From Antedon mediterranea (Eukaryota; Echinodermata; Crinoidea; Comatulida; Antedonidae): DNA of 64,000 nucleotides. The stretch is from NCBI RefSeq assembly GCF_964355755.1, contig NC_092679.1, positions 17,474,932 through 17,538,931 of the forward strand, given 5' to 3'. Shown here in pieces: positions 22,200 through 63,568 of the stretch (position 1 is the stretch's first letter; each line of letters starts with the position of its first letter). The notes under the pieces are model-generated. The model searched no databases, was not told the DNA's origin, and was given only the letters and a program-made list of their open reading frames with translations. A program made the translations under genes and the position numbers.

Positions 22200-22626
22200 A
22201 TGTTTGATCAAGAGGCGGAATACACAGACGACGACCACAGTGCTCTAAGCATGGCTAGTACGTTTACGTTCTTTTCAAAGTCTGTGGACAATTCCACTAC
22301 TGACGCGCCGCCGAAAACCGAGCCGCCAAAAACAGATAATGACCACGTTGAGGATGACGACGAAGCGGGACCATTTCAAAAATTAGCCGCCAGGTTGTTT
22401 TCTAGGAGTAGAACTAAATCACAAGAGGAACCAGTTCCACCACCTCCCGTTCAAGATGAGCTCAGTGTCGACCGTGAATCCTCGGCTTATGATAGCTCAC
22501 CCGAACCACCTGTGTTCGATAGCGATCAAATCGGGACGGACAAACCTGCAGGAATACTTTTAAATGGATTAGCTTCTAAATCAAAGAAAACTTCTACTAT
22601 AAAGTGGAAAAATCCAGATGGCACAG
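22200..22626 (+). CDS. EML: EML alternative first exon 1a (142 codons)
   Basis: The exon opens with ATG (MFDQEAEYTDDDHSALSMAS) and stays open for 427 nt to a CACAG|GTATTT donor in phase 1, matching the acceptor phase of the coiled-coil exon at 33339. The peptide is acidic and Pro/Ser-rich with no domain I recognise; a basic GLASKSKKTSTIKWKNPDG lies near its end. It could belong to a different gene, but no other compatible acceptor was found and phase and strand fit EML. Confidence 0.6.
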
Positions 22627-25600
22627 GTATTTTATTTGTTGCTGTATTATGCCTCTTTTATCTATGATCTATTTTATTATTACGTTTCAGAGTCGGATAC
22701 TTATTACTTATATGTCATATATTGATTTGATAAAAGTCCAGTCAAGTAGAATAATAATAGAATCGGGGCCCATATGGCATTTTGATTATCTTACGACAGG
22801 GATCAGACATATCTAATTTTAACTGCTTGTTTATAGTAATAATGTTTTTACATTATTATTGTAATATATGATTTAAGCCTTATATTATTAACAGAAAAAA
22901 CTTAAATCAACTTTAAAGGTTTATTTGTGTTTCCTTATTATGACCCAACTAGGGCCGGCCTTTCGATAAATACAATGAGACTTAGTTTATTGGGCGTGTA
23001 TAAAATTAAACAAACAATTTTTTAATAATAAAGAGCTTTTAAAAAGTACACTTCAGTAAAATGTCATATAATAACCAATTTTCATTTAAAAAAACCGGTC
23101 ATTTTTGTTAACAACGCTCTGAAACTAAAATATATTACGATTTTTAAATAAATAATAAAATGCTAATTCCATCCGCTGCATCAAAAGGCTGGTAGAAATT
23201 AATTAGTAATATAAATTCCAATGCATTAATTACTATACAAGCGTCCATTGATTATTGACAAAGGGATCTGCTAATATAACAATAGACCTGTCTACCTAAA
23301 TACAACTGTTCACACAGCGGATGCGTTTGCATATTTTGTGCATGATAATTATAATTGTTATGAAATCACGTTTTATGAATTACCATAATTCAATATTCAC
23401 AATTTGTTTGTTCATTAAATCATGGAATAATAATTATCACATGGTCACCATCGTCAACATAATCCTCGTTGTCGGTTATCGTTGGATCATAACTTAATTA
23501 TTATCCTCATCATTCATTCTCCTCCTTTCTCATCATCATCATCATCATCTGACAGACATACATCATTATCTGTTTTATTTCTTATTCTCATCATAATATT
23601 CATCATCATCATCTTCATCTAACCATCATTGCTACAACCATTAAAATAAAAACCAATGAGTTTCTAGAGATTGTACATCGATGATAAAATCAAAACGACG
23701 GAATTTTTATTATTATCTTCCAAGTCAAAGTATTTAGAGAGCGCGCCCTCGTTTTTTAATCCCGGATACACAGTTCGTACAGTCATCAAAAGTCGAGTTG
23801 ATCCGTAGGTCCTCTTGTCCCGTTCCGTAGTGTATTTTTCACACGAGTGAAAAAATCAAAATCATGGAGGCCAACGTAGAACAAGGACCTGCCGGTGATG
23901 TTGTTGAAAACACTCCTGGTGAAAAAATAGGTAAATATGTAATGTCAATCACTATGCTAGGTAGATATAATATCTGGCATCTGTACACGTGTGATGGTAA
24001 TTGAATAGAATAGCATAAAAGGCTTTTTCTGCTTGAATTGGCGCGGTCCTTCCTAGGCCCCAACCTGTTCCATCGATCTGTTGTGGATAAAAAAGCCCGG
24101 GATTTACCAACTTTGGGGTGCGTCAGGTAGTTTCATTGATGGAAGTTTAGTAACACGTTTGCGGCACATAGTAGCCTAGATCTTTAAATGGATAGCAATG
24201 TGTACTCTATTCACATTTTATTTTTTAATAAAGTATTTAGTCTTTTGATACTTCTATTGTTTTTTTGACTAGGAGGCCTATCATATACAAATTTAACATT
24301 TAACAATGATGTGATTTTTTATGATTTAATAAATAATATTAATAATATTATTAATAATGAAAAATGAATAAACAAAAACATACAGGGTAGGGGGGTACAG
24401 TATATATTTCATTTTCAATTGAAATAATAACTAGGTAGGCCTGCCCTAGCTAGTCTATTTCTAGCCAGATACAGCTAGGCATCTTCTCAAAAACCAAATG
24501 AAATCTCTCAATTATGTAAACATGGTTTTAATATTTTATTAATAAATTGTCTGTCCTGCAGAAAACTGTTTGTTTATTTATTCTCTTTGTGATTTTAAAT
24601 CTTTTAAAATCTAAATAGTTAGCTTACCTGGATAAACCGACATAGGCCTTTTCCCCTTCGAGGGGAAAACATTTATAAGTAAGTTTAAATAGAACAAGTT
24701 ACCCACCCCTCCATTGGTTTGTGTAATTTAATTTGAAAACGCCACACAAGATGCCACTTAAAATATTTGACTAATTTGTATTTTGCTAAACCATATTCAC
24801 GTCGTCAGGTAACATTAAACAATTAATATAATAATAATAATGTATCTTACTTAAGGTGTTTACGCTTGACCTCAGATGTTTAGTTTGATTTAATCAATGT
24901 TATTACAGCTTGAAAGCAAATAAGGGTATTTTAATGATTTTGTGCTTTTTTTTCAATCTTTCAATTCATCTTCAATCCAGAATTATTTTTACACAGTATT
25001 GGATATATCTTGCTTTTTAAAAAAATGTAAGAAATTGTACTATTGACGACAAGATTGAAGGAGTATATGTATTCACAATGCGATGACAATCCCACTTCCA
25101 TAATTTTCAACATAATTCATTTTGTAGATTTTTAAATTAATTATCTGTACAGTAGTGTGATTTATATAACCTTTCCCTAGATCCCCATTTTCCCCACTCC
25201 TCCCCTTTTCAACCTGACTCAATTTCGTATGACTCATAGTTGTATGAACTTCCAGTCATACAGTATGATGTTACACTGAATTAAAATTTATTTTAAATTA
25301 AGCTGTATTTAAAAAAAGCTTCACATTTAACTAATAAAATACATGCTAATTTTTTATATTTGTTAATATGCCTGTGATGTGTTGTTGTGATGCTGTACAG
25401 ACATCCCGTCCATCCCCTTCCTGTTTCTTACTAAATGAGTTTCCTGGGTCTGACATAACCGTATCTCCTTCCAAATTCCTGCATAAATTTATAAATTTTA
25501 TTTGAATCATCGGTTTCCAGTTCCTGTGATCGAGCCCATGACAGCTACAGTAATAAAATACAATCCAACTTTATAAGGAAAATGTTTAATTTGAATAGTA

Positions 25601-31600: not shown

Positions 31601-34600
31601 ATTTTTTTTCAACAGAAAGTTAGCGCATGATATAAATTAAACTTTTGCAAAGTTTCAAGTTGAAATGTTATTTGGTTGTCGAGCTATGTTAAATACGACA
31701 AAATCGTTAAATCGCGCGTAAGTCACGTTGCGCAATTGTAAACGTCATGAAAAACTTCGCTTGACGACGTTACGTAAATGTCAATATGTTAAGATAGTTA
31801 CCGAAATGTTATGTTTGCGAGTTTTAGAGAAAAGCGTTACACAAAAATCATACAGAATGATTTCGTACAATCACAAGAGGTTATCCTGCAACTTCGTTGC
31901 GGATAACCAAATACAGTACTGTAAATATGATTTAATTTGGGCAATGCTTACAGTACTTCACTGTCTGGTATATATGATTGATGAGGAAGTTCCTTTATTT
32001 TTGAAAATAATTGACCTTACCACAAGATTTATTCATGAGAATTAAATTAATTGTGTATTTGTTTAATAAGTATAACTAAGAGATAATAATTGGTTGAACC
32101 ATGGGTTATTATTGAATGGAAATCAATGACTTAATAGGAATGTAATGCATTTATGTACAGTCAGTACTGTGATTCATGTAATAAAATATTTCACTTAGCA
32201 TTTTATGTGGTATTTTTTTGCATATTTTATACTGTATTTTGTACAGTGTCGGTTACTCTTAAAATGCGAATATTATGTATCAACAACAATCTTTAATTGA
32301 AACAAAATAATAAATTAAAGGTATACCATAAAAGTAATTAAACATGAACTAATTATGCACAGATTAAACTTATAAAGAACACAACAATTACTTACAGTAT
32401 GTCATCGAAAATTATGTTCGATATCAATCATCAATCAATAAAGATTCTTTAAGACGTTTTTTTCCATGTTCTGTAAAGTACTATGGTAATAGTATATACA
32501 GTAAGTATGTTTTCCTATGATGTTCCTCAAGTGGTTTATAAATACAGGAGCAGAATGAACCCATATTACTTGGAGAACATAAGAACAAAATCACCGTAAT
32601 AATAGGGCTTTGTTTTGGGAGTGGTTTTTTCTAGTGTATGATACTCAATGTATGTTGCCTTTTTTTTGGTTCATTTCTTTTGAACCATCTGTGCCTATTG
32701 ATGTTGCTCCAAATATGTACATTACACCAAACGATATGGGTGACATCACAATATCATCTGCTCCACAACACTAACACAACTCCAATGCTGCAATTAAAGT
32801 GAAATTCTTGCTTATGGCCGACCTAACAAATACAACAAACTGGAAAATAATATCATAAATGATTTATCAATTAGAACTTTTCGTTTGTGAAGGATTTTTA
32901 TATTTAATTGTGTTCTGATGTCTAAAGCATGTTTGGTAATAAGCAATATTTTGTTTATGAAAGATCGGAAGATTCAGATTTATTTGAGGTTGATTCTCTT
33001 GAAAATAATTCTCAACTGGAATCATTGGTATATGAAGGTATTGGTTTGGTTACTTTTTAGATAATTAATTACAATTAATTTTATTCAATTAATTGTTAGT
33101 TTCTCAGATTTACAGGTTATAAAAAATAATTTTTGATTATTGTTCCAATGGTCTAGCAAGAATCGCAATACAAACAATGTTTCCTACTCCAAATTCAGAT
33201 TTATTAGTAATTATGGCTAATCATTTTTAAAAAAAATCATATCTCTTTTACTCATCTTCCTCCTCTCTATCTCATTTTTTGTGGTCTTTGTCAAATATTA
33301 ATCTTTTTTGTTTGATTTTAATTCTTATTCCTCTCTAGATGATCTTTTGTACACCACAAATGACTATGGACTGGACCTCCATGAGCGTGTCGTTGAACTG
33401 GAGAAGAAGGTCAAAGAGCAAGGAGACGAGCTGATGTGTATGAGGACGGCAATGGCTGATGTTGTCCGTCGTTTAGGTGATGTTGAGAGCAAAAAAGATA
33501 CAAGAAAAACTACATCTAGAGGTAGGTATAAGTAAATGGTGAAAACAGAGTACACCAAATTCTTCACATGGTATTGTATTGTATATGAACAGTGTCATGA
33601 GCAAATTCTGTAATACAGTGTCATATATCACGCGCCTGTATTATGTAGGTTAAGGTTATTATGACCTATGATACAGGCATCACATGTGATACATATGTGA
33701 CAATGTATTACAGAATTTGCCTATGATACTGAACAAATAATTAAACATCCTATACATGGTGGTTACTGAGAATCGGCTTCTATCTCAGTATTTAGTATAG
33801 AAGTAGATCTTTACTGAAATTTTGTGGGAGGGGGATGAGAAGAAATTTATAATAAAATCAGCAATGGCTGATGTTATCCGTCGTCTAGGTGATGTTGAGA
33901 ACAAAAAAGATACAAGAAAGGTTACATCTAGAGGTAGGTATTTAAAGTATAAAGGTAAAAATGGAGAACATTTATCTTTCTAATAATATCATCACACACC
34001 ATCTTAAGATGTGTACAATAAAGTAGGCCGTTTCTATGTATATTATGCTATCCTTTTGGGAAAGGTGAGTGAAATGTTGGGGAAATCTACAGTCACTCAA
34101 AATGTAGTGTACTGTTTAATATCAAACTAACTACACTATCAAACTAGTTTGATAAAAAAAGTGTGATGTGCCCAAATATGGTAATTATATGACATCATCA
34201 TGTCCATATGTGCACATCACATTTTTAGTTCACATAAAGTTTGATAGTGTAGACAGAGCTTAAAGCAGATACTATATTAATTTTAAAAGATGTCAGATTC
34301 ATTAAATATCTTTTCATTGAGTTTGCATTGTGGATTCAAATTATTAATGCATTATTGTATATTTATTATATATTATATTAATCTAAACATTATCAATACT
34401 TTATAATTTAAAACATGATTGTATTGATTCTATTGTTTGTGGTTGTTTTTATGATTGTGATTCATTTTGTGAACTAACATTCAAATTTGCACAATAATAT
34501 TATCGATATTTCTTTTTTCTAATGCAAACACTAATAATGAAGCTTTTATTTTACTAATATTGTTTTTTTGGGTGTTAAGCTCTGTCTACACTATCAATCT

Positions 34601-37600: not shown

Positions 37601-40600
37601 GTGCTTATATTATATGCTTTTTAATAGATGAATTTATCAATTGAAGTTTTGAGTATTATGAGATTATTGTTTATTTTGGATGTTTACAATCTTGTTCTTT
37701 TTATTAATTAAGTTTTTAATGTCTTTATGTTGTGTTATATTTGTAATTTTCGCTGCTATTGTAATTAAATGTTTTTGTTTTCAATTACTGTAAAACATGT
37801 TTATTATATTTTGGAAACCCAGTAATTTAATGAGTTGTGTTAGATGTGATAATTTTTGACCATTACGAAGCCATTCATCTTGGACGTTTAGTGAGGACAG
37901 ATTATAATTTTTGTTCTATTTTAAAACATAACCATATACACAATAATAATAATAATACAAAAAATACTTTATTTATTTGTGCTTTATATGTTTTTATAGG
38001 AATGCTAAATCAGACCCTACCGTCCAAACTGTCCGTTCCTAATGGCACATCACGCCATAAACGACCGCCGACTCCAGATTCAAAGCGTCGATCATACGGT
38101 GGCGGCAGCTCTTCGGGTAGTGACAAGCTAAAGAGGTGGAGCTCAGCTGATAGTGGCAGTTTCCCAGCCGGGTAAGACCTCCTAGAGTACACTTGCATGA
38201 TGTAGCATGTCATTTATTATGCAGAGTTGGGGAACAGCTCTCTGACTTGGCCACAAACATGAATATTTAACATTTATTCAGCAATGTTAGATTTTTTATA
38301 CAATGCTCAATTAATAAATTTTGCCAATGATTTGCAATTAGTGTTAATAATGTCAGAAAGCTGTTCACTAAAATGTTGCAATACATTACACAATTTTAAA
38401 GTATACTAACCAATAATAAATGGAAAGGTTTTATTTTCATGGCATATAGGATAGGTTGCATGTCATAGCTGTTACATCAGTTGGTAGTACCCACAACAGC
38501 TTCACACCATTGCATTATGAAGAAATCAAAATTAATAGATTATAGATCACATGTCCATGTCACCTACATAGTATGCTTAAACATTGCCATCATTGGTGTG
38601 TCATTATTTTTTCTCAGATAAAGATCTATATACTGTAGGTCTTGCATTGCATATGATTCTAAAGAAATGCCTTTGTTGTCTTTCTGTTGTTAAACTAGAT
38701 TCTTTATCCTCATTGCATCATCCTTTTGCTGTCGGTCCTAGACTAAGTGCTCTCTGGCTTCTAAAGGTTTATTTTTCTCTCCTCGTAATTCAATCTCATA
38801 TCATTCATAGAGTTTTAAAAGTATATCATCATAATATACCACATCATATTAAATAATTCACTATAAGGTAGTTGGTAACTGTGCTTCTATTTTTACTAAA
38901 CAGTCCATACTATTTTGACTATTTTGGTTTCTGGAGACCTACTATAAGGTATGATGCAGTGAATTCGAAAATTGTTTATCCATGTTTCTAATTTGGTGAT
39001 TTGCTTTTTACTAGTTGGGTTTATAGAATTTAAATTTGAATCAAAGCAAAATATAAATACATTCAAACATATTTAGATATCTATGAAAATATAAGACGAA
39101 CCAACTACAGTAGTAAGAATAAGGTATGCCTGTAATTAAGGTACTTTAGTTCCTGGTTTGATCTATGCAGTTCTGAATCTCAAACTCTCCCAGCTGGTAC
39201 CAATTTTAACACAATTTAATGTTCCTGCTAAAGGAAACCATAACCTCATGCGTCATCTATATATAAATTATTAAGATCTCACTTTCTTAAAAAATGTACA
39301 GTATATAAGTACATTGATATTTATAGCTAGCAAAGTACTAGTAAACTAATACATACATTGATTGATATACAGTAGAACCTCTTCTTGGGACACCCCCTAT
39401 TCAGGAAACACTTTCCGTTAAAAGTGAAACGACTATATAAGGCAAAACTTCTGACCAATTACTCAACTTCCTGACGCAAAACTATTCCACAGTAGTTACA
39501 TACAATTATCATCCTGTACAGTACTCACTGTTAAATTGGGCTCAAATCTATTCCCTAGCCATCAGCGCAAGCTCAGTGGTCTAGAGTATGAACGCCAGGC
39601 TCCAGTGATCGGGAGGACGTGGGTTCCAGTCCAACTTAAGAATTCAATGTACTTTAGTGTGTATAAAGTACAAAATTATTTCAGAGTGTGGCAAACATCT
39701 GAAAAATGTATATATTTATATATGGCCAACCCATACTCAGGGGAAACCCTTATTGAATTGAAGAGATACTTTGTTGGGTCCTGAAGGTCTCCATTTAAGA
39801 GGTTTTACTGTAGCTACCATTTTCAATATCTATCAAGCAAGTAGCGAAGCACATATAATAAACTTTCCAATCTTTCCTGTGTATTAAAAAAAGTAATTAT
39901 TTTACTGGTTTAACCATGGAGGTATTATACCTCCAGGGTTTAACTGACCTGTTTAGCATGTCCAAAACAAATGCCTTCAATCTCATAATCGACTAACAGC
40001 ACAGTTAAAAGTGGAGGTGATGCATATGTCATATTATATATAGCATTTGCATGAAGTAAAATTAATAGTGTGCATGTTGTGTAAGCTATACAAGTTTATG
40101 TTGCACAAGTTCCTTATTGAATATTACTGTGGGGATTTTAAGGTTCAGTAATGGTGAATACGCTATAGTTGCTTGAGCTGTATGATTTTACATTTGTTAA
40201 TAAACTTTTGTTGTAGATGATGGGTAGCGCTCAGCGATATTCTGCTTTTACATTGCGTATGATGACGATGCAGCATATTTAAAAACAGTGACTGGTTTTA
40301 AAGTGTGTATAAAAAATACAATTTCAATAGTTACCACAATGAACATTTTTAGGCATTTAGGGTAAATCATTGAAATCGTAATTGTAGTTATTTAGATAAT
40401 TTGGACTGTGTGGTACCAAGTCGCAATAGAGCAAAATTTGAATGTCATCAGCCTAAATTCAGAGGCTATAGCTTTAGATGCTTTGGATGAAAAAGAGTAG
40501 ACAATACACAATTCTGGTGAAGGTTCGTGTGTCAAAGTTCGAAGAATGTTCCAATTGCATGAGACTGTTATTTATAAATCATGAATTAATAATTTGTGAA

Positions 40601-43600
40601 ATGATTTTTTAGTAGTGAAATGAAGAGTATAGATGTACAAACGACAATTTCCTATCCATCTAATGCTACCATCAACACTGTTGATAAGTATGACCAGCTT
40701 TCAATTGATACCTACCTAACTAAAGCAAAATCAATGGATACTGGTATCTTCCCAAGCATACCACATGCTACTATGGAACGAAATGCATCAATATCAGGTA
40801 TGGCGTACCAGGTGAAGCATTCAAAGCAATGGAAGTCTGAAGCTCGTGTTGATCAACCAGAAGCCATACATAGAAAGCACCATCATAGAACTGGTGGACA
40901 TAAGTATACTGCTGATAACTTAAAAAGGAGCAAGTCAGAAAATCAGGTATGTGAACGAAAGCGTAGTTCCATGCGGCCAAGCTTCTCCGAGGAACTTCCT
41001 GGTCTCCCAGGAAACAACATGAGAAAATGGATGTCTCAATTGCGTGTTTATACGCCGAAAGAAATAACACCGAAAGAAACTAAAGGTCGACGAGAGAGCC
41101 TGTCTGAAACGCAACCAATGAGCAAAATAAGAAAATGCAAATCAGAAGTGCAGGTAAATGCATCGCCGCAAAAAGAATTTCCTTCATTAAGTACGCCTTA
41201 TGTTGCCACTTTACCATCTGCTAATGAGAAGAAATATTCACAGCATTGGAAATCTGAGGTTGCGAGTCAAGAGAACAAAAAGTCTAACATTGTTCAGAGG
41301 TATTTAGATTGTTTACCAGGTAACGAGTCCAAACCACCAACTACACAAAAAAAGCTGAACAGAATGTGGTCCACGGAGACATACACAAAAGATACATCTT
41401 CACGTAGATCTTCAAGAGCTGGTAATTTGAAAAAAGCACGATCAAGTATAGATCTGACAACATCCAGTAAGGAGAAGAAAGTGCAACTCATCTTGCCAAC
41501 TAAGGAAAATATGAGTATAAGTAGAAGAGTCCGAGGAGAGACGGTAACGTTAAAATCTAACAAGTGGCGAACTGGAGGAACGTTTAACACCCACAAAAAA
41601 TGGTAAGAACGGAGAAAAGTGAAGCGCAAATATTAGTTTTCTCTGCTTGGTTATAGAAGGTTATGGGAATATTTTATTGCTGACTTAAAATTAAGTGTGA
41701 ATTGCGGTTGCCTATGTCTAGGCTGTGTAGTGTGAGCTTTTAGATTTAGTTTTTAAAAACAATCCTTGAATATTTCTGATTGGTAGCTTATCTGTGCCAA
41801 ACTGACTTTTTTTACATATTTTAGTTACTGTCTTATAACTATATCTTTGGTTAGGTTTGGAAACTGCTTTATTTAGAAGGAATAAGCATCTTAACAGAAT
41901 AGTACAGTCAAATATCGGAATACCAGATTTTGGTTTAATGCTCTAAAGCTCTCCAATTTCATTGCTTAGTTTGTATTACACAAAACAAAGTATTCTGCAA
42001 TGCAAAGGTTTTGAAATATATGCTGCATAAAGAAAAGCAATGCTTTAAGTGTTAAATGCAAATTCAGAGAAAGAATGTTTTAAAATAGTATGCAATGAGA
42101 TGTGGTAATAAACATAGTCAATAGAAAGTAGTTTAAATTAAGCTGGCCTGGAAATGTAGTCTGTGAAAGCCAACCAACAGAGGGCAGCATCTAGTTATCA
42201 AAGCTAAAGTGCTCTTACAGACTGTTACTATTTTTCCGGTTGAATACTATAGTTGAAAGCAATAAAAGTTAAATGACCTTCATCATATCATCATGATTGT
42301 TGAAGGTGTGGTATTGTGATAGTATTAGTTGTAAAGACCAGTCACTGTTTTAGCTACTGTGTTGTTGATTGTCTGCCGCTCTCTTCTCACTGAACAGTTT
42401 GCAGAAACTTTTTGTTGCATGTGATTGTGAAAAAGCTTTCCCAGTGCAAGTTATTTTTCTGTGATTTTAAGATGCCGCGCACCTCTGCATCTCCTCGGCC
42501 AAATTCTGCTCGCCCATCATCGGCTTCAAAAGCACGAGCTGCAAAATCGCGCTTTCCAAAAAGGTTAGTTAATCTTTAATAACGGTAAATCATTTTTGGG
42601 TATTATTTACATTTTTCATATTTATACCAGCAAAATTGGATGATGCAGTGTACAATGTTTCTTGGCACGCTGCCAACTGTTGAGTGATAACACTTTGTAA
42701 AATCAATTTACTGCCAAAATCTGTCACTTTCAACAATACCGGTGTATTAAAACAATTTGGATTAAAATCTGTTCATAGCTTTAAGTTAATTCTAACATTT
42801 AAATTCCTAAATCATTCATCCTGAAATGATATACTTTCAGCAAATATGAACTTGAATATTGCTATTCTCTGTTTGCTATCTCTATTTGTTGACTTTTGAA
42901 TTATTTAAAACAACATTCAATACCAGAGTTCTTTTCATCTATCTATGTAATTCAAAATGGTCTCAATAAGATATGGTGCGGTATTTACCATCTCTAAGAA
43001 CTCTTAGTTAAGTAAGTCACTTGAATTGAGTCATTTTCAAATCTAATCTAACAAAATTCAAAATTGTTCACAAAGTTTTAAACAAAATTGCGCAAAGATT
43101 GCACAGTGTTTATTAGCAACAGTTGACTAGCGGAACAAGATCATTAGGTCCCGTAAAATCTGGGCGGAAACGTTTAACCGAAGGATTCTTTTTCAGTTCT
43201 GCTAAGAAGAGTTCTTCTTTGACAAATTTATCTGGACGCAGATCGTCCACATCTGGGTGAGTTTTAGTTGTGAAATAAAAATTTATTTTTTGCAGGAAGG
43301 TAGTGCTATATACATTATAATGTAGTGTTTGTTTTTTGTTTTATATTTAAATTTGGTTATTTTTACAGAATTATTATGAGTTGCCATTTACTGTTGTTTG
43401 TCTTTGGTCATTTTTTTATATACAAATGTTACTATGTACTATTCTATGGTTACAGTTTTAGCTTAAAAAACTAAGTTTCTAATATATTTTTTTTCAAATT
43501 TGGTTTTTACTTGCTTGTTTATTTTGCATTTTTTTAAATGCACCTATCAGCCATTTTAATATGTCATTACTATATTATAGACCAAAACACTATTTTGTTT

Positions 43601-46600
43601 GCAGGAGATAAAAATTGAGAAACAAATTCTCAAGTATTGAATTGAACATTCAGTTTAAACTCAGAGTAGAGTAAACTTTTTACTTGACTGTAAGCTACTT
43701 TTCATTAGTTAAATTATCATCCTGTTTGTGTAGTACCCACTACTTCCTTGAGCTTAGCCATCAGTGCTAGCTTGGTGGTTTAGAGGTATGAATGCCAGAC
43801 TGTTGATCTAAGGGATGTGGGTTCAAGTCACACTCAAGAATGACTTGCAAATATTTTTGCAAAGTGTTCCCAATGTTCCGAACATTTAGGAGTGGGATAA
43901 AACATCTGACTTATAGTTGTGTAGTACTGAAATTTGATAGTACTTTATGTCAATTAAATTTCCTACAGTTAAACAATCTTAGGCTCATTAAAATTAGTTA
44001 CAACCAAAATAACAAAAGAACATCTCATCCAAATAGCTTCATTTAAGTAAAACTTTACCTTGATCTTTCACTTGATATGAGTTGTGTTTTGACAGACAAC
44101 ATAAAGTTCAAACAAACTTAAGGATGCATGATAAATGATAAAGTCTGTGCTTAGGTATAACTAACAATCGGCCACTATTGATGGTATGTGAGTTGTGTGC
44201 CCATATTGCCAGGTATCTATTGTCCCAACTGAAATGTACACTAGCATACGGCCTAGCAGATATGGCGACAGCTTGGTTTTGATATGGTTATTTGGTGTTA
44301 CTGAAGACAAATCAGTTGATGAAATGAAATATTATTGTTTAGATGATAAATAGGTAATTCAGAAAATTCATTGGAATGAGAAAGAACAAATTGTTACCTA
44401 ATTAAATCAATATAATTAAACTTATTTTGCATTATATGAAATGTTACCAATTGTTGCCAATTTAGCAGAGTACTGTAGGAGTATTGTTAGAAGTTGAATT
44501 TAAGCCATTATTTGCACAAAGCATACTTGTTATGATAATTAATTCATTAATTCTTTTTATTGGTATTGTTATTCATAAAATATTATTAAATTAGAATGTA
44601 ATGATTATATACACAATGTGACATTCCAACTGAAACTCAAATTTAGAATATTGCTTTAACTGTACTTTTTTGTAAAAGCACCATCATGAATTAATGTGGT
44701 ATACAGTAGTCAATATAAACATTGATGGTATACAGTAGTCAATATAAAGAATAATATATAAACATGTGTGAGGACACACCCATTTGACTTGCAAGTAGTA
44801 AATAGATACTATACTGGTAATTAAATAATTTCCATCGGTAAGGTACAACTGTACTTATGTAAAAGCACCATCACGTATTAATGTGGTATACAGTAATCAA
44901 TATAAACAATGATATATTAACATGTGTGAGGACACACCCATTTTACTTGCAAGTACTAAATAGATACTATACTGGTAATTAAATAATTTCCATCGGTAAG
45001 GTACAACTGTACCTTATGTAAAAGCACCATCACGTAGTAATGGTATACAGTAGTCAATATGAACAATGATATATTAACATGTGTGAGGACACGCCCATTT
45101 GACTTACAAGTAGTAAATAGATAATATACTGGTAATTAAATAATTTCCATCGGTAAGGTACAACTGTACTTATGTAAAAGCACCATCACGTATTAATGTG
45201 GTATACAGTAATCAATATAAACAATGATATATAAACATGTTTGAGGACACGCCCATTTGACTTACAAAGTACTAAATAGATAATATACTGGTAATTAAAT
45301 AATTTCCATCGGTAAGGTACAACTGTACTTATGTAAAAGCACCATCACGTATTAATGTGGTATACAGTAATCAATATAAACAATGATATATTAACATGTG
45401 TGAGGACACGCCCATTTGACTTACAAGTAGTAAATAGATACTATACTGGTAATTAAATCATTCCCATTTGTAAGGTACAACTGTACTTATGTAAAAGCAC
45501 CATCACGTAATGTGGTATACAGTAATCAATATAAACAATGATATATAAACATGTGTGAGGACACGCCCATTTGACTTGCAAGTAGTAAATAGATAATATA
45601 CTGGTAATTAAATAATTTCCATCGGTAAGGTACAACTGTACTTATGTAAAAGCACCATCACGTATTAATGTGGTATACAGTAATCAATATAAACAATGAT
45701 ATATAAACATGTGTGAGGACACACCCATTTGACTTACAAGTAGTAAATAGATACTATACTGGTAATTAAATAATTTCCATCGGTAAGGTACAACTGTACT
45801 TATGTAAAAGCACCATCACGTAGTAATGGTATACAGTAGTCAATATGAACAATGATATATTAACATGTGTGAGGACACGCCCATTTGACTTACAAAGTAC
45901 TAAATAGATACTATACTGGTAATTAAATAATTTCCATCGGTAAGGTACAACTGTACTTATGTAAAAGCACCATCACGTATTAATGTGGTATACAGTAGTC
46001 AATATAAACAATGATATATAAACATGTTTGAGGACACGCCCATTTGACTTACAAGTAGTAAATAGATACTATACTGGTAATTAAATAATTTCCATCGGTA
46101 AGGTACAACTGTACTTATGTAAAAGCATCATCATGTATTAATGGTATACAGTAGTCAATATGAACAATGATATATAAACATGTTTGAGGACACGCCCATT
46201 TGACTTACAAGTAGTAAATAGATAATATACTGGTAATTAAATAATTTCCATCGGTAAGGTACAACTGTACTTATGTAAAAGCATCATCATGTATTAATGG
46301 TATACAGTAGTCAATATGAACAATGATATATAAACATGTTTGAGGACACGCCCATTTGACTTACAAAGTACTAAATAGATACTATACTGGTAATTAAATA
46401 ATTTCCATCGGTAAGGTACAACTGTACTTATGTAAAAGCATCATCATGTATTAATGGTATACAGTAGTCAATATGAACAATGATATATAAACATGTTTGA
46501 GGACACGCCCATTTGACTTACAAGTACTAAATAGATACTATACTGGTAATTAAATAATTTCCATCGGTAAGGTACAACTGTACTTATGTAAAAGCATCAT

Positions 46601-49600
46601 CATGTATTAATGGTATACAGTAGTCAATATGAACAATGATATATAAACATGTTTGAGGACACGCCCATTTGACTTACAAGTAGTAAATAGATAATATACT
46701 GGTAATTAAATAATTTCCATCGGTAAGGTACAACTGTACTTATGTAAAAGCATCATCATGTATTAATGGTATACAGTAGTCAATATGAACAATGATATAT
46801 AAACATGTTTGAGGACACGCCCATTTGACTTACAAAGTACTAAATAGATACTATACTGGTAATTAAATAATTTCCATCGGTAAGGTACAACTGTACTTAT
46901 GTAAAAGCATCATCACGTATTAATGTGGTATACAGTAATCAATATGAACAATGATATATTAACATGTGTGAGGACACGCCCATTTGACTTACAAGTAGTA
47001 AATAGATACTATACTGGTAATTAAATAATTTCCATCGGTAAGGTACAACTGTACTTATGTAAAAGCACCATCACGTATTAATGTGGTATACAGTAGTCAA
47101 TATAAACAATGATATATAAACATGTTTGAGGACACGCCCATTTGACTTACAAGTAGTAAATAGATACTATACTGGTAATTAAATAATTTCCATCGGTAAG
47201 GTACAACTGTACTTATGTAAAAGCATCATCACGTATTAATGGTATACAGTAGTCAATATGAACAATGATATATAAACATGTTTGAGGACACGCCCATTTG
47301 ACTTACAAAGTACTAAATAGATAATATACTGGTAATTAAATAATTTCCATCGGTAAGGTACAACTGTACTTATGTAAAAGCATCATCACGTATTAATGGT
47401 ATACAGTAGTCAATATGAACAATGATATATTAACATGTTTGAGGACACGCCCATTTGACTTACAAGTAGTAAATAGATACTATACTGGTAATTAAATAAT
47501 TTCCATCGGTAAGGTACAACTGTACTTATGTAAAAGCACCATCACGTATTAATGGTATACAGTAATCAATATGAACAATGATATATTAACATGTGTGAGG
47601 ACACGCCCATTTGACTTACAAGTAGTAAATAGATAATATACTGGTAATTAAATAATTTCCATCGGTAAGGTACAACTGTACCTTATGTAAAAGCACCATC
47701 ACGTAGTAATGGTATACAGTAGTCAATGTGAACAATGATATATTAACATGTGTGAGGACACGCCCATTTGACTTACAAAGTACTAAATAGATAATATACT
47801 GGTAATTAAATAATTTCCATCGGTAAGGTACAACTGTACTTATGTAAAAGCACCATCATGAATTAATGTGGTATAGTCATATGAACAATGATATATAAAC
47901 ATGTTTGAGGACACGCCCATTTGACTTGCAAGCAGTAAATAGATAATATACTGGTAATTAAATAATTTCCATTGGTAAGGTACAACTGTACTTATGTAAA
48001 AGTACCATCATGTATTAATGTGGTATACAGTAATCAATATAAACAATGATATATAAACATGTTTGAGGACACGCCCATTTGACTTACAAAGTACTAAATA
48101 GATAATATACTGGTAATTAAATAATTTCCATCGGTAAGGTACAACTGTACTTATGTAAAATCACCATCATGTATTAATGTGGTATAGTCATATGAACAAT
48201 GAAATATAAACATGTTTGAGGACACGCCTATTTGACTTACAAGTAGTAAATAGATAATATATTTATAGATAATACCCATCTATAAGGTACATATGCATTG
48301 AACTAGGTCCTGCCGAAACTGTTGCCAATGGAAAAACAATTTTGTCAATATGCAATTTTCGTTCACCTGTGTCTGGACCTTCACCTGACATGTGTCAATA
48401 TACAAAACCAGGTTTAGGTCTACCAGTCAAAGTGTAAATAGTATATTACTCTGGATTTCTATGTTGTTTAAAAATAAATGTTTGTATTAAAGGATATAAT
48501 ATCATCTTTTGACTGTCAATATACACTGGTTTCCAAGAGCAGGTCCATCAATTAGCTACAACTCATCACCAAATTAAGGCTTATTTGTTATGCATGATTT
48601 TGTTTTGTAGAAAGATTAGTGGAATAACTCATTTACCTAGCTAATCATTTTTGGCTTTTAGAAAGTGTTCGATCAGATGTGTGTGAAAGCGGTGTTAGTT
48701 AAAATGCATAGAATATTCACATCTGCTGGTATTGAAGGTGATTGCTATTGTTAAATTGATATTGTTTGTGAGTGGTATTTGCCGCATACATTAGGGATAA
48801 CCTAGCATAACATAACTCTATCCAGCTAGTTCTAGACATAATGGTGTCGAGACATGTAGTATTACTGGTAGAGATGGTAACACTACATGAATTTGTTTCT
48901 CCTAGGCCCTAGTTTATTTCAAAATGATCTAATTCAATTTTAACGTCTAGTATAAAAAGCTCAGTTTATCTTTCCAGAAGCATGATATGATCTTGTAACC
49001 TACTGTAGCTTTGTTTTTCTCCTGGTTTAAATTTTTTTTTTTTTATATGAAACATAAAAGTAAAACGATAGACAAAAACTGTAATGGACCAAAAAAAAGG
49101 GCGTGTCTCCAATCTCAACTAACAAAAATATAAATACATTATTTAAAAAAATGTATAGGCCTATAGGACAAATTATGTACAATACAAAATAACATTATAC
49201 CTTTGAAAGAGAAAATGTTTGTGTTCCAACGGGTTCTACTGTTATTATTTATAAAGAGTAAAATCAAAGTTTTTAATTTTATTACAAATTTCCAACATGT
49301 TTAAAGAATACCGTTTATCATACATTTTTTTTTACTTTCGGTAAATTATTCATATTATTTGAATATGCAATACTTATTTCCCTAACCACACATTTAAAAA
49401 TCTTTAAAAATGTAGTCTTGTGCAATTACGACATATATGCATATCTTGGTGCCTGGATTTCCAAAGCCATTTAACGAAAATTAGTGGGAAAAAAAATTCC
49501 ACAAATTGAGTTATAAAAGCTTTCCTGTGGAATAAACCATTCAAAGTCCAAGGTTTTTTGCTTAGAAACATTCCAAAATTAAGATATTGAAAAGAAGATT

Positions 49601-52600
49601 ATTTTATTTTAATTTTCACATAACTATTATTTAATTAACAGTTTAGAGTATTACCACTTTTCATAGAGGTGTTACCCATTATTAAAATAGTGAAAAAACT
49701 ATGGCAAATCATTAAATCTCCCCAATGATAAAGTGGTTGAGGCCACTCCGTCAGGTCATGGTGCCTTATATTAGGAAGTCCCAGCCCAAAGGGTGATCAT
49801 GGTACGTTGATTGTTGAATTTTTATCGTATTTTATATCGAAGAATAAAACATTTTTAAAGATGTATGGGAGAAAAAGGTAATATTTTCTATAATATATTA
49901 TTATACGTTTATATTAGTATTATCCCAATGGTTGTGATTTGTTAAATTAATAAATTAGTAACGGAAGTGTTTGATATTTGAAGTATTTTTCCTTCGGTAT
50001 ACTTTGAATTAGCTCATTACTGTCATCTATGTGTAAAATAAATTTAAATCCAAAAGAAACATAATTTAGTTATGGTTTCTTTTGGAATATTTTGTCAAAC
50101 AAACATGTTTTCATTTTGTTTTTGCTTTATATCCATTCTTTATTTCAGGAATTTTAGTCACTAAACACAGATTATGGCTGATTCTTTTGTTTTAAAATAT
50201 ATATATTTGTTAAATTCTGTGATTTATATTGGGTTTTTTTTATGCTTAATATTGCTATATATTTTGTTGTTTCAATTGTACTGGGTTACCACTAATTGTC
50301 ATCAAAATTATTTTATAATTTTTTAATTTTTTTTTTACCAGTAAAAATATGAAAATCCCCTTAATCTAAAAGTTTCATGAACTTCTACATGTCAATAGTT
50401 CTATTCTATGGATGGATCACCAAATCTAATATTGATTTTGATCACCATTTGGAAAATTACCTTGTACAAAAGATTTACCAACTAAACCACTTATTTGGGG
50501 ATGAACCTATATCATAATGAAAACATATCCACATTTAAAAACACAAACATTTATGATTTTTTTTTTATTTATTTCACAGACCCAACAAAGATGCAGAATT
50601 CAATGCAGGTAAATTTATATCTTTTGATATGTTCTAAAGCACTGTCTACACTATCCAACTTTATGTGACAAAAAAAAAAAAATGTGATTTGCCCATATAA
50701 TATATGGACATGATGAAGTCATATCACTGCCGTATTTGAGCATATCACTACCATATTTGGGCATATCACTACCATATTTGAGCATATCACTACCATATTT
50801 GAGCATATCACTACCATATTTGGGCACATCACACTTTTTTAGTTTGATAGGGCAGGGAAAAATGTCCATGTAGTGTAGACAGAGCTTTGTATTTCTTATA
50901 ATAAATCAATTTTCATATTCAAATTCACCAAACATTTATTTCTTCAATAAATACATATTAGGGTTACCTTAAAATAAACTTGATTGTGAGAATAATTTGT
51001 AATATGCCAAGTATGAGTCATATGATATGATATATTCAGTCATTATTCTTTATGAACTCTTCATTCTATCTCGGATACTAATCTCTCTTTTTTTTGGTGT
51101 TTAAATTGTGATAAGATCTTGTGTACTTTTAATATCCACAATTAGTATTTTGTTCTACTTGCTTGCTCTTGGCTTAATAATAGTCTTTTGATAACATGCC
51201 TTCTGTCTACACATGGTCACTCTTGTTGCTCTTTTTTTCCTAGTTCCTTTATTGCAAAGTTACAAAAATAACATAATTTTATGGCACAGAAAACCGAATG
51301 AGCCAGTTAACAGGGTATACGAAAACAAAGCTAACATTGTATTGCTTTAAAGCTTGCGTTTTCCACATTATTCGGTTGTAAATTTTAAAAGTATGAAAGC
51401 GTATTTAAATAATGTAATGTTATCTTTAATGCATAAAGCATACTCCAGAGAAGAGAGTATTTTCAGACGTTTTTTGTTGAACAAATAAATGAAATGACAC
51501 AGGAATCATACTCTAGGTGTTCCTATTTGTTCACTTTAACTTTGATATTAGGTCGATTTAAAAAAAAAACTAAGAGAGGAAAGAGCATTTTAAAAATGTA
51601 ATGTATTTTGTTGATACATGACAAATATTTTGATGTTCTTCGTAAATGACTTTAGTTTTAGATATTAGATAAAAAGCCTTGATAATTTCTTGTGGATTTT
51701 GCATAAATATTATTCTAATGTTCCACTTGCCTGGTCTTTGCTTAATGGCGATGTTGTTTCTCTATGGATTGCATCTCTGGCGTGAACCAACATGCATCAT
51801 TAATCATCTGTAATAATATTCTACTTATACTAAAAATGCTATAATTCTATGGAGAAAAAAGTGCAATGCTTTAAGCTCTGTCTATCAAACTATTTAAAAT
51901 AAAAAAGGTGTGATGTGCCGAAATATGGTAGTGATATGCCCAAATATAGTAGTGATATGACATTATGTCCATATATGGGCACATCACATTTTTTTGTCAC
52001 ATAAAGTTTGATATTGTAGACAGGGCTTAAATTTGACAAGTGGAATAACATGGCAGATACAGATTGCGTATTTAAAATGTTAAAAATTACATTATGAACT
52101 GGCACCAAAATTTAAAAAATGTAATTTAAAATATACAATAATATCAATTGATATAAGAGGTCAATGATGCTATAAATATTATTTTACGTTAATTTTGCAG
52201 AAGAAGGATTGGTTCGCATATACATGAGAGGGCGCCCAGTTACCGTTTACGTTCCATCTGACGTAGAGAATTTTGACATTGGATCCAAGATATCAGCTCC
52301 TGCTGAAAAGTTAAAGATGGAGTGGATGTATCCTTGATGTATTTGACCTGTAAAATCAAAAAGGTCAACTTATATGTTGTTGACCATATTAATGTGTTTA
52401 AATGAAAGGGGTCGAAGGGGTGGGAGGATCTGCCCTTGACTTAACCAGTTTGATGGAGTTTACTCTACCGAAACATCTCATCAAACAATGAGGCTTTGGT
52501 TAGTTTTTTTTTTTTATTTCATATGTCTATTATCTTTTTTCTAATTTCTAGTACATGTTGTTCAGTTTATTCTGAACCATTAAACCAGTCACAGTATCTA

Positions 52601-55600
52601 GGCCATTATGAGATTTCACAGCATGTGTCCTACTACTGCGCTATGAGTTTCAACGCACTCATAAATTGAGTTTTACACAAATTGCTAAATGCATTTTATG
52701 ATTTATCACTTCCATTATAGTAATTTATGTATAGTATCCTCATAAAATTATGAAATTTTACTAGAGACTCTCTTGGTTCATAGTGGTGTGGTGGAAAAAG
52801 TTTTCTCGCGTCCATTGTACACATGACTTGTGTGCACTAAAAACCCAGTGTGGTATGTAAATGTTTCCCCGGCATTGTGGTTCAATTTAGCGCCTCATTG
52901 TTACAATAGTTCTAAGGGCCTGCAGTTCATTTAAGCCCTAGTATCACCATAAGTTCTGGGGGCCTGCTGTACCTATTAACCCCTATCACCATAAAATCAT
53001 AGTGCAAAACCTTTGGGCTAGAAGACTGCAAATGAGAGAGAGATACACACTATTCACAATCATTCTATATTATTATACTCTGGTGTAATTTGTACTTTAT
53101 ACTATTAGTACATTAAAAATACAAGTAATTCTTGGGTGGGACTCGAACCCACGGCGCCCAGATCACTTGCCTGGCGTTCATACCTCTAGACCACCCGGCT
53201 GAGCTTGTGCTGATGGCTAGGGTTTTTTCCCTCAATCTTGTTATGAGAAGAGGTGCACTAATAGGCGATAAGACAAATCTGTTATTGGATTTGAACCAAG
53301 AAAGCATGTTACCTAACTAATGTATATTGGCACTAGTTCAACCAGTCATTTTCAAGATTTTCCTTAGCATTTGTTATCAGGTATGGTTATCGCGGACGTG
53401 ATTGTCGCAGTAATCTCCATCTACTACCGACCGGTGAAATTGTATACTTTATGGCTGCCACTGTGGTCTTGTTTAACGTTGAAGAGGGTCTGCAACGCCA
53501 TTATATGGGCCACAATGATGATGTTAGATGGTAAGGATGCACTGTGTTTAAAGACACTGAAATGCATATCAAAAAGTGCATACTGTATTAAAATATTAAA
53601 AATTATTTAATTCACAATTTCATACTTTGTGTTAACAGTATTGCTGTCCATCCTGACAAAGTAACTATAGCAACAGGACAAGTTGCTGGACATGACAAAG
53701 TTGAAGGAAAGGTAAAAATGTTTGTCTTAATTTACAACATAACAATTTTAAAGAAGATAAATTATACATTATTTCCAATTACAATACTGTATGTTATTAA
53801 TAATTACAATACTGTATGTTATTAATAATTACAATACTGTATGTTATTAGTAGACAAGGCTTCAAAACAGTAGTAAACCTCTTTCTATTGGACTAATGTT
53901 ATATTAACATAACCCTCATTTATTTTTAACCACACCATAATAATGATATGAACATACATGTTTGTAAGTGTTCATTTTACATATTTGTATAAATAAAATA
54001 AATTATAACTTTGTTCCATTTATTGATAGCGTTGGAAAGTTAGGCAAGGTGCAGAGGTAATTCTTGTGTTCCACACATAAAAACATCACTGTTTTCCCCC
54101 TTGCTGTCATTTCAACCAAGCTTCCCATGTCATGATTTATGATGCTATAGTTATTCTTCACAATTTGAATACTTTCAATAGATATCACAGTAAAACAACT
54201 GGTTATAAGCTTTAGTTATGTAATAGTATTTGTTGTTTTATAATTTACAATTGTTTTATGAATTATGGGAAAACAGATAACAGTTTACTACCTGTTCTTT
54301 CCCCACAGTTTCTATTTTAGTTTCCTTTTCCATGTTATATTTTTGGGGCATTATTTAGGGTATTAAGTAAAAATTTCCATTTTTCTTTCCCTTTTCTTCA
54401 TCCCATTTTATTTTTTCGTTACCTTCTGTAAACAAAACACAGTTCAAATTCACTAAAGCCCAGAAACAGATATTAGAAACACTCTGTAAATATTAATGAT
54501 ATGCGATGGAATTATTTTAGTGGCTTTCCTAAATAATCTTCATGGAAGCCTACTGTATGTGAGAAGTATATTCAGTTGTAGCCTTAGTATTTTTGAATAA
54601 ATTCTGTATTATTTTGTAAAAGCAACACATCATTTTTGTCACAATATTGTTGGCTTCAAAGTATTAAGCCCTGTTTACACTATTAAACAAAAAAATGTGA
54701 TGTGCCCATATATAGACGTGATGTCATATCACTACCATATTTGAGCATATCACTACCATATTTTTAGGCACATCACACTTTTTTTTGTCAAACTAGTTTG
54801 ATAGTGTAGACAGAGCTTTAGATCTCACCATTATTATCACCTATTATTTTACAATCTGTTCTTGATCTTCTTTACAATGCAATATGTTTCAGTAGCTGCT
54901 TATTGTGCTAAAAGTGCTTTGTGTTGTGGTATTGAAATATATGTAAAACACATTTCATATGTAGTCTTGGACATGGTTTATGTAGTGTATGGGCCTAGTT
55001 GTATTTGAGGCGAAATTGGTTGGAGAATAGACACTCTGTGCCTAAATTGTTTCTACCATTTCCCAGCTCCATTTTACAACAGTAGAAGCAAATTGCCACA
55101 ATTATTAGGATCAAAAGAGACGTCATCCATTCAATTATAAATAAAAATATTATTTTTCCGATTGTAAGAAATTTTTTCCACGAATAAAAAAAGTTAAACA
55201 AAATGATAACAAGCCCAGTGATTTACTGGTAGTTCTAGTCTTGGTTTCACTTGAAATAGCTTTTTTCATACTGTTCACAATATTAGGATATGTTGTTTTA
55301 AATTTAGAAAAACTGAAGTTGCTTTTTTTTTGTATGTGTTTGTTTCAATAGAGGTATCCAGTGTAGTTTACTAGATCATCAAAACGGCCATCCATAACCA
55401 CTTCTCAAAAAACAGTCAAACAAATCACTTATTTTCATTTTGCTTTTAGCATTTTGTATATTGTTGTGGCTCATATTATTTTGATAGATACTTTTAAATC
55501 AAGTATTTTTTATCTTTAATTAATAGCCTCATGTTCGCATTTGGGATTCTGTAACTCTCAACACCCTCCATGTAATTGGTGTAGGCTCCTTTGACCGCGC

Positions 55601-58600
55601 TGTCTGCTGCGTTGGATTCTCTAAATTTGTAAGTATTTTCAATAATATCGTATACAGGTATACAATATTTTTTTCTAGCATCACTAAAAATATGTTAAAC
55701 ATTAATTATTAGTGATAAACCTTAGTATTTAAAAAAGAAATTGTTATTTCTATCAGGTTAATAGTGGACAGTAGATAGTTTAAAACATTAATAATTGTTT
55801 ATTGTTGTGACTTTTAATGCATATTTATACTTTCTCTAATTGAACCCATGACTACATCAAATATTGTTGGGACTTATTTCCTTTTTAATGTGATTATAGA
55901 TTTATTGTATCTATATATAAATTTACGTAAGAGCAATATTTGTAACTTCTAGAATCTTTACTCAATGGTATAAAACGTTGGTACATACTTTCTGTACTTA
56001 TTTTAACCACCTAATGTAACCCTGTTTAGGTAATTAGAATAAATTAAATTCAAATAATTTCAATTCAAATAAATGTATTTCTCAAAAAGAACAATAACTA
56101 ATATCTTGAGAAAATGATATTCCACTTTAAGCATAGCTTTAATTTTGGCCTCCAAGCAACATTATTATATGAGAACAGACGAAAAATATAATTTGTAGCA
56201 TTCTTTATAGTGTTTCACCACAGGTTTGTTGCTTATTCAACGGTATCACAGCCTTTTTTCCACAGATCACATGATCCTCCCATGGGAAACATTTCTGGAT
56301 AATTCCATGCTTATGTTAATATAGATATGAAAATATTATTAACATAACTAAGTAGATAAGAATATGTATTCCAAATCAATAATTCAAATTTATCACAAGA
56401 CTAAGTATAACTTAAAATAACAAAAGCTGGATTACAAAAACCCGATTTTTTTTTTTTATATTCACTTATCCATTTATATATCCAATTTTGTCAAAACAAA
56501 ATTCTATACACTACAGTATTGGATGAATAAGAAACGAATAAAAATCTATTAAAATATCTTTATTGAAACTAAATTGTATTGCTATATATATAAATAAATA
56601 TTGTGCTTTTAACAATAACATTCATTGTTTTTTTCAGTTGGCGGAACATGCAATAATTGTTCTTTTATCATTACATTTAAAACTATTTTGTTTTTTTACT
56701 ATGAATATGTACTTTGCAACAAGTTTCATATTCAATGTGTAATTTGTTTTTTTACCTATGAATAACTTTTTGAACACTCTAAACAAATTACCACACCATG
56801 TAGGATGGTGGTAACACATTAGTAGCAGTTGATGAAGCAAATGACCACTGTATGTCTGTGTGGGACTGGAGCCGCGAGAAGAAACTCAGCGAGAGCAAGG
56901 TAACACGTTAGAGGTCACGGACACGTCGTCTGTGTTCCTCTCTTTGTATGTTGCATGCTGCTTTGATTTAGAGTGTTGTTTTCTTTTTTTGCATTTTGCT
57001 TGATTCGTCAAGGACGAAGGTGTTTCCCTCTTAGCGTTGGATGAATCCAACGATCATGTTATGTCCGTTTGGGACTGGCGCAAGCAAAAGAAGATTTGTT
57101 CGACTAAGGCAAGTTTTGTGAACCTTTCTATTGGTTTTGGTGGCTGTGTTTTTGCAAACTTTTTCCACCTTCATCGCCTTCATCTCGAGGAAATGAGACG
57201 CTTGTTTTCAATTCCTCGTCATCTAACTCATTTCAATATCACCGTTTGATCGCACGCTAGTGGCTCGCCCACGTAGCAGCAGCTTTGCTATCTGAAGCAT
57301 GTTGCGCAATGGTCAAGTGTAGACTTCCTACCGTTAGTTGATAAATTAAAACAGTAGTGGCTGTATGAAACATTTAATGCACTTAGCTGGTTGATATTTT
57401 TACTAATCCTAGTTTTAGTCTGACCTCACGACCTCACCAGGTTATTTTTAAATGTTGACAAAAATCCTAGATTGATTCGGAATACATTTTTTCCCAGGGT
57501 GTTAAAAAGTTAAGGATGGGTAGTGGGGAAAGAAAGTACCTATAAGTCTTCAGAAGTTATTTGGATGGGTACTTATGTTGGCATTAGGCTGGGCAAAAAG
57601 CGTTATGAATAAGCTAGCCTAAGTGGAGGATTTTGAAGGAAGCTATCCCTGCTTAATGCCACCCAGCAGTATTTGATTCAAGGGTTTAATGTCTTCCAAA
57701 TATTAGTAAATATTTAATTGTTGGTTGGTATTAGAGAATTACAAATATTTCAAAAGCTGCTGGACAAAAAATGGTACTGGTATTTACATCAATGATAGAT
57801 AGTTTAATGTAGAAAAGGTGTAATTGAGTTTTAAAAAGCACTGCCTCCAAAATTATTTCCTGAAGTAACTCCTCAATTCAAAAGGAAAGAAAAGAGTTTA
57901 TGTAGTAAATTATAATAAATGTAATTTTAAATAAAGCAATGGATTCAATTGGTTTAACCAATTCGTAAAATTGTACCCATTGGCTAATTATAAATGCATG
58001 AAAATTTTGGGATGACCTGATTGGACCTACACTTGCGTCTGAACAAATGTTCTCTTTGCACATATTACTAACACTCGATGAACTATTACAAATTTATTCT
58101 ACTGCAGTACGATTTTTACAACATAATGTTACTTAAACTTTATTTCCAAATGCATATCATGAAATCTCTGGCCTCTTTAAATTAATGTGTTTGGCATGTG
58201 TTGAATTAAATGTCTTGATGTGCAAGCTTAAAACATAAGAGCCACAAATAAAAAGCTTACTTTGAGAAATAAGGTACGTTGATGTCTAAAGCCTTATGTA
58301 CACTATCAAACTAATGTGATGTGCCCATATATGGAGGACATGGTGATGTCATATTTGGGAATATCAATTCCTTATTTGGGTACATCACACTTTTTTTTTG
58401 TTAAACTAGTTTGATAGTGTCAGACAGATATGTTTGAAATTGCATGGCTTTATGCAGCTTCAAGCATTGTCTGCACTAAATGCTATATGTGTATACAATA
58501 TCCATACATTATTTACTGCATCAACTGATTTAATTTACTGCAGAAACTGCAATAGAATACATTTGACATAGTCATTGGTAACAATTCTTCAGTTTAGATT

Positions 58601-63404: not shown

Positions 63405-63411
63405 GTGAGTG

Positions 63412-63568
63412 TAAAGCGCTGTCTACACTATCGAACTAGTTTGACTAAAAAGTGTCATGTGCCCAAATATGGTAGCGATATGCACAAATATGGTAGTGAT
63501 GTGACATCATCATGTCCATATATGGGCACATTACACACATATAAAGTTTGATAGTGTAGACCGAGCTA
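63412..63568. mobile_element. Hairpin MITE, full length (copy 13)
   Basis: Starts TAAAGCGCTGTCTACACTAT 7 bases after the exon 63404 donor and ends ATAGTGTAGACCGAGCTAAA. Confidence 0.9.

Follow-up and report, generated by a model that had tools for sequence, protein, structure and literature searches.

The stretch analysed here (the window) comprises 64 kb of the genome of the crinoid Antedon mediterranea (G000:C10:17474932-17538931, from a 354-Mb assembly comprising 18 contigs) and harbours, on its plus strand, a gene of the EML1/4 type that was identified by its coiled-coil, HELP and WD40 exons. The subject of this study is a 990-nucleotide (nt) exon in the linker of this gene, termed exon R (40613-41602). 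The coiled-coil exon, encoding the trimerization domain (33339-33521, phase 1/1, with boundaries set from AG/GT and the frame), has as its best phmmer matches in the PDB, over positions 33341-33520, the EML4 and EML2 entries 4cgc (E 7.3e-5) and 4cgb (E 1.9e-4), as expected of the N-terminal coiled coil of EML1-4. It is followed on the same strand by basic linker exon A (38000-38171, phase 1/2), by exon R itself (phase 2/2, with 329 whole codons in addition to split ones), by the 60-nt basic linker exon C (43197-43256, phase 2/2), by linker exon D (50580-50608, phase 2/1) and by the exon running into HELP (52201-52327, EEGLVRIYMRGRPVTVY...). The HELP motif matches PF03451 above the cut-off (53361-53468, or G000:C10:17528292-17528399; E 7.9e-14), and human EML1 (4ci8) is the best PDB match of the WD40 exons of the TAPE propellers, such as that at 63119-63406 (E 2.9e-44 at 63062-63436). 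Between the coiled coil and HELP/TAPE lies an apparently unstructured basic linker, exons R, A and C being net positive with isoelectric points of 10.0-12.0. The location originally proposed for exon R, in an EML gene between coiled coil and HELP, is supported by the 4cgc/4cgb and PF03451 matches.

Exon R is contained in an open frame of 333 codons without a stop (40605-41606), the edges of which coincide with ATTTTTTAG on the 5' side and GTAAGA on the 3' side, and an acceptor with a pyrimidine run stands exactly at the 5' edge of the exon; GTAAG occurs 55 times in the 64-kb window. In 20 simulated sequences of 64 kb with the third-order composition of the introns of the window, the longest stop-free run was 108-159 codons per sequence, and the synonymous codon choice of exon R departs from the intronic expectation to an extent reached by one of 2000 simulations. 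The phases also agree, exon A ending in phase 2 and exons R and C having phase 2 on both sides. When joined, the chain 33339-33521/38000-38171/40613-41602/43197-43256/50580-50608/52201-52327 is open over 519 residues with no stops, and the same six-exon chain minus exon R is also open, over 189 residues and again with no stops, so that skipping of exon R preserves the frame, as expected of an optional linker exon of an EMAP-type gene. Exon R is very probably real, and would probably be spliced as an optional exon of the EML gene, in agreement with the original prediction of a skippable 990-nt exon with phase 2 on both sides. The further suggestion of a direct join from 41602 to 50580 has to be abandoned, as this junction creates an in-frame TGA and would truncate the protein; inclusion of exon R therefore requires exon C.

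The translation of exon R contains a repeat composed of five cores of about 9-10 residues each, with unrelated spacers between them. In the numbering of the translated frame (P0001), which is used throughout, the cores are, all on the plus strand, SKQWKSEARV (core 1, 40821-40850, Ser75), LKRSKSENQV (core 2, 40920-40949, Ser108), MRKWMSQLRV (core 3, 41019-41048, Ser141), IRKCKSEVQV (core 4, 41127-41156, Ser177) and SQHWKSEVAS (core 5, 41238-41267, Ser214), and three of the five Trp residues of the exon fall inside them (residues 73, 139 and 212). A Gibbs search for five sites returned these same positions, spaced by 33, 33, 36 and 37 residues, in 8/8 runs at width 10 and 8/8 at width 9. With equal search effort on exon R and on 400 shuffles, the motif information was equalled by 4/400 shuffles at width 10 and by 1 to 3/400 at width 9, the regularity of spacing by none of the 400, and strength and regularity jointly by none. 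The summed self-alignment score is raised at lags 31-40 (p 0.002, 500 shuffles), without significant excess at lags 65-79 (p 0.14), and a period test over all [KRMWC]S dipeptides of exon R was not significant (p 0.32). On leave-one-out, each held-out core was the top non-training site of 320, a result that is partly circular, the cores having been chosen for their likeness. Outside the array, the segment most like a core is LKRWSSADSG in exon A, which outscores every non-core site of exon R.

A repeat of about 35 residues in seven copies had been proposed; the Gibbs search supports five, and the copies then placed at Ser38 and Ser251 (Ser40 and Ser253 in the present numbering) are outscored by several non-repeat positions. 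A search for seven sites (8 runs, 200 shuffles) only added irregularly placed ones, and arrays of seven or more copies were accordingly rejected. Inclusion of LPG/LPS-N in the repeat unit was rejected as well, since the LP dipeptides (at 128, 131, 200, 234 and 294) hold no fixed register, their offset from the cores being variable.

Exon R carries a net charge of +30, compared with +7 for exon A and +4 for exon C, and has a Ser+Thr content of 22.2%. Prediction of its structure by AlphaFold2 from the single sequence gave a mean predicted local distance difference test (pLDDT) score of 43.7 with two short helices, consistent with a disordered segment. Genome-wide searches at the protein level (six candidates scored) and at the DNA level each returned one match, exon R itself, which speaks against both a transposon and domain duplication. 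Neither did external searches reveal relatives: no Pfam family matched at E values up to 10, a sequence search of the PDB gave a single chance match (E 1.1) and none that was credible, and a profile of the five cores found 11 weak PDB matches (best E 1.4), with no tau chain among them. EB-binding SxIP motifs were not seen in P0001 on inspection by eye, and the accessible parts of the literature on repeat-bearing or MARK-linked EML modules yielded no description of exon R.

Some of the serine-containing cores resemble sites of basophilic kinases. MARK and AMPK-family kinases favour the sequence LXRXXSXXXL, and MARKs also use KXGS-type sites in tau and MAP2/4, where phosphorylation releases these proteins from microtubules (PMC6890249). 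When this consensus was relaxed to [LMIVF] at the hydrophobic and [RK] at the basic positions, exon R contained five matches (Ser59, 108, 141, 177 and 277, the middle three being those of cores 2, 3 and 4) versus 0.25 expected, and 0/20000 shuffles attained that many. The six-frame background of the window and other loci, with 66 matches in 86,093 residues, is likewise 0.25 per 329. Two open frames upstream of the HELP of a paralogue on contig C2 contained one match and none, respectively. The assembly has three matches to the KA1 domain, which is what MARK-like kinases in this genome would bring, as expected if such kinases are present.

Among known systems, the repeats of tau, MAP2 and MAP4 (PF00418) are also disordered and basic, with regularly spaced units bearing one phosphorylatable Ser each. 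Their period is of 31-32 residues, compared with 33-37 in exon R. Exon R differs from them in having no KXGS, no PGGG and no match to the PF00418 profile; judged by its sequence, it is not a member of the tau-repeat family, but is alike in design. Direct homology to tau was rejected on the absence of Pfam families and of tau among the matches of the five-core profile. A separate gene region of tau/MAP2/4 type with 11 PF00418 matches, many for an invertebrate, is present elsewhere in the assembly (G000:C2:9437374-9445446).

The closest precedent for exon R within the EMAP-like proteins is exon 5 of Caenorhabditis elegans ELP-1, a small, alternatively spliced, optional exon of 27 Ser/Thr-rich residues that is conserved in nematodes only (PMC2642796). 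That exon is more than 46% Ser+Thr, while exon R is of 330 residues and 22% Ser+Thr, strongly basic and built around the five-core repeat; moreover, alternative splicing applies to ELP-1 exon 5 itself, and for exon R it is suggested by the frame. The claim that EML linkers contain no such module is softened by this precedent. The N-terminal region of human EML1-4 is similar to that of the present gene in having an unstructured basic linker after the trimerization domain. The human region binds the acidic E-hooks of tubulin and is released by phosphomimetic substitution, as in the S144/S146 switch of EML4, and the accessible text on it mentions no repeat array such as that of exon R (PMC11639804).

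To bind microtubules, human EML4 requires its trimerization domain as well as its unstructured basic region; the latter binds the acidic E-hooks, and S144D/S146D mutants are lost from microtubules (PMC11639804). Splicing at the N terminus also gives human EML2 and EML4 long and short forms, which differ in their effects on neurites (PMC12182296). By analogy, we tentatively favour the reading that exon R is an alternative exon that lengthens the basic linker of the EML protein and adds switches for basophilic kinases, and that would be tau-like in its action. Its inclusion would extend the disordered basic linker between the coiled coil and HELP/TAPE by 330 residues and about 30 net positive charges, the five spaced basic Ser cores could serve as repeated contacts for the acidic tubulin tails, and the same cores might double as basophilic kinase sites of the AMPK/MARK type. 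An unphosphorylated trimer with exon R would then have a firmer grip on the lattice than a trimer lacking it, and phosphorylation of the cores would lower the affinity, in the manner of NEK6/7-site phosphomimetics in human EML4 and of MARK acting on the KXGS sites of tau. The original prediction of a microtubule-binding or phospho-regulated array is in keeping with the basic, Ser-rich, evenly spaced cores and with the five AMPK/MARK-type sites against 0.25 expected, and binding and phosphorylation themselves remain putative. The more specific proposal that a tau-like, kinase-switched repeat array arose independently in an EML linker and is offered there as an optional exon is unlikely.

A number of observations weigh against the favoured reading. 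Exon R shows no similarity to tau repeats, and neither the literal LXRXXSXXXL nor K-x-G-S was found in P0001 by eye. The AMPK/MARK residue classes were relaxed post hoc, with the sequence already in view; two of the five resulting sites (Ser59 and Ser277) fall outside the array, only three being repeat cores, and cores 1 and 5 are devoid of the hydrophobic residue at -5, core 5 also of that at +4. In self-alignment, the best single diagonal is ordinary (p 0.22), beside the excess at lags 31-40. The prediction of disorder used one sequence alone, an input that generally lowers confidence and often gives poor models. The synonymous codon score of exon R (-18.1) is far below TAPE-like coding usage (simulated mean +50.3, sd 9.7), which suggests weaker codon selection or a younger sequence.

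Several of these observations would also suit a rather unlikely alternative, namely that exon R is a real coding exon but a mere disordered, Ser/Lys-rich spacer, grown by replication slippage or exonization, in which the cores are decayed remnants with no particular function. Predicted disorder, codon usage weaker than that of the TAPE exons, the shortness of the cores and the poor conservation of the sequence between them are all compatible with such an origin, as are the big low-complexity open frames upstream of the HELP of the C2 paralogue, which would indicate that EML linkers expand in this genome. A decaying tandem duplication, however, predicts likeness along the whole unit of about 35 residues, not a single core of 9-10 residues at near-constant spacing, and the cores are the part that has stayed alike. 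The open frames in question (L011, positions 5865-6269, with SRPGSSTPGQ-like repeats, and 6380-7036, a charged stretch of 219 residues) lie upstream of another HELP gene at about 10.458-10.459 Mb of G000:C2; their membership in that gene is putative, and EML-type linkers may have expanded repeatedly in this genome. A coiled-coil-like pattern, searched for as a regular expression, was not found in four paralogue loci, L007, L009, L010 and L011.

It is improbable that exon R is an alternative first exon or an independent transcript with an intronic start, using the ATG at 40620 to give an EML isoform without the coiled coil. The first ATG of the frame lies only 7 nt into exon R, and a short form of human EML2 is devoid of exons 1-4 (PMC12182296); yet the 5' edge has an acceptor with a pyrimidine run and the phase of the exon A donor, neither of which a first exon needs. 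Such a start is also favoured by the nearby exon S (42472-42563, plus strand), which can be fitted solely as an alternative first exon, read in the frame of its ATG: it begins at that ATG with MPRTSASPRPNSARPSSASKARAAKSRFPK, has a phase-2 end from which the frame continues into 43197, and is a candidate for the start of a short EML that would lack both the coiled coil and exon R. Still less probable is a 14-3-3 docking array, in which phosphorylation of the basic Ser sites by AMPK-family kinases would recruit 14-3-3 and mask the linker: core 2 does contain R-S-K-S, but the Pro at +2 of RSXpSXP is missing from all five cores. Finally, a chance open frame, to which the codon usage below that of the TAPE exons would point, is very improbable in view of the length of 333 codons, where simulation gave at most 159, the consensus splice sites at the edges and the matching phases.

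Other features of the locus bear on the rest of the gene. Two upstream first-exon candidates, 22200-22626 (MFDQEAEY...) and 23864-23930 (MEANVEQG..., phase counted by hand), both have the phase-1 end that the coiled-coil exon requires, and possibly represent alternative promoters. Part of the coiled-coil exon recurs about 0.4 kb downstream of it (33861-33935), with AMADVIRRLGDVENKKDTRKVTSRG and then GTAGGT; a convincing acceptor was not seen, and this copy is perhaps a dead or alternative exon. In the TAPE domain, two adjacent 96-nt exons of equal phase, 113 nt apart (56804-56899 and 57013-57108, the second with a GC donor, gcaagt), align with the same residues of human EML1 4ci8, about 178-207, and are a candidate mutually exclusive pair, of which a literature search gave no report. 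A family of dispersed repeats whose units resemble CATATCACTACCATATTTG occurs at 50700-50830 and at about 3730, 12870, 20560, 34160, 34640, 51910, 54690, 58310 and 63450, and in paralogue loci too. On the minus strand, two open frames related to each other (12835-13257 and 17908-18444) are presumably 2-hydroxyacid-oxidase-like. A search of the assembly for COX1, as a guide to genetic code and phylum, gave 0 matches.

EML linkers hold microtubules and determine the behaviour of EML4-ALK variants (PMC11639804). Exon R would more than double the positive charge of such a linker and furnish it with evenly spaced kinase-like sites, which would make it a natural setting in which to examine how an EML is tuned by charge, valency and phosphorylation. 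If a tau-like, kinase-switched array did arise independently in this linker, a single EML gene would yield, by splicing, weak and strong lattice binders regulated by MARK/AMPK, and the tau design would have had a second, convergent origin in a genome that also holds a true PF00418 gene. Should the array indeed bind and be switched, the principle of tau would be one that can evolve through exon gain in an unrelated protein.
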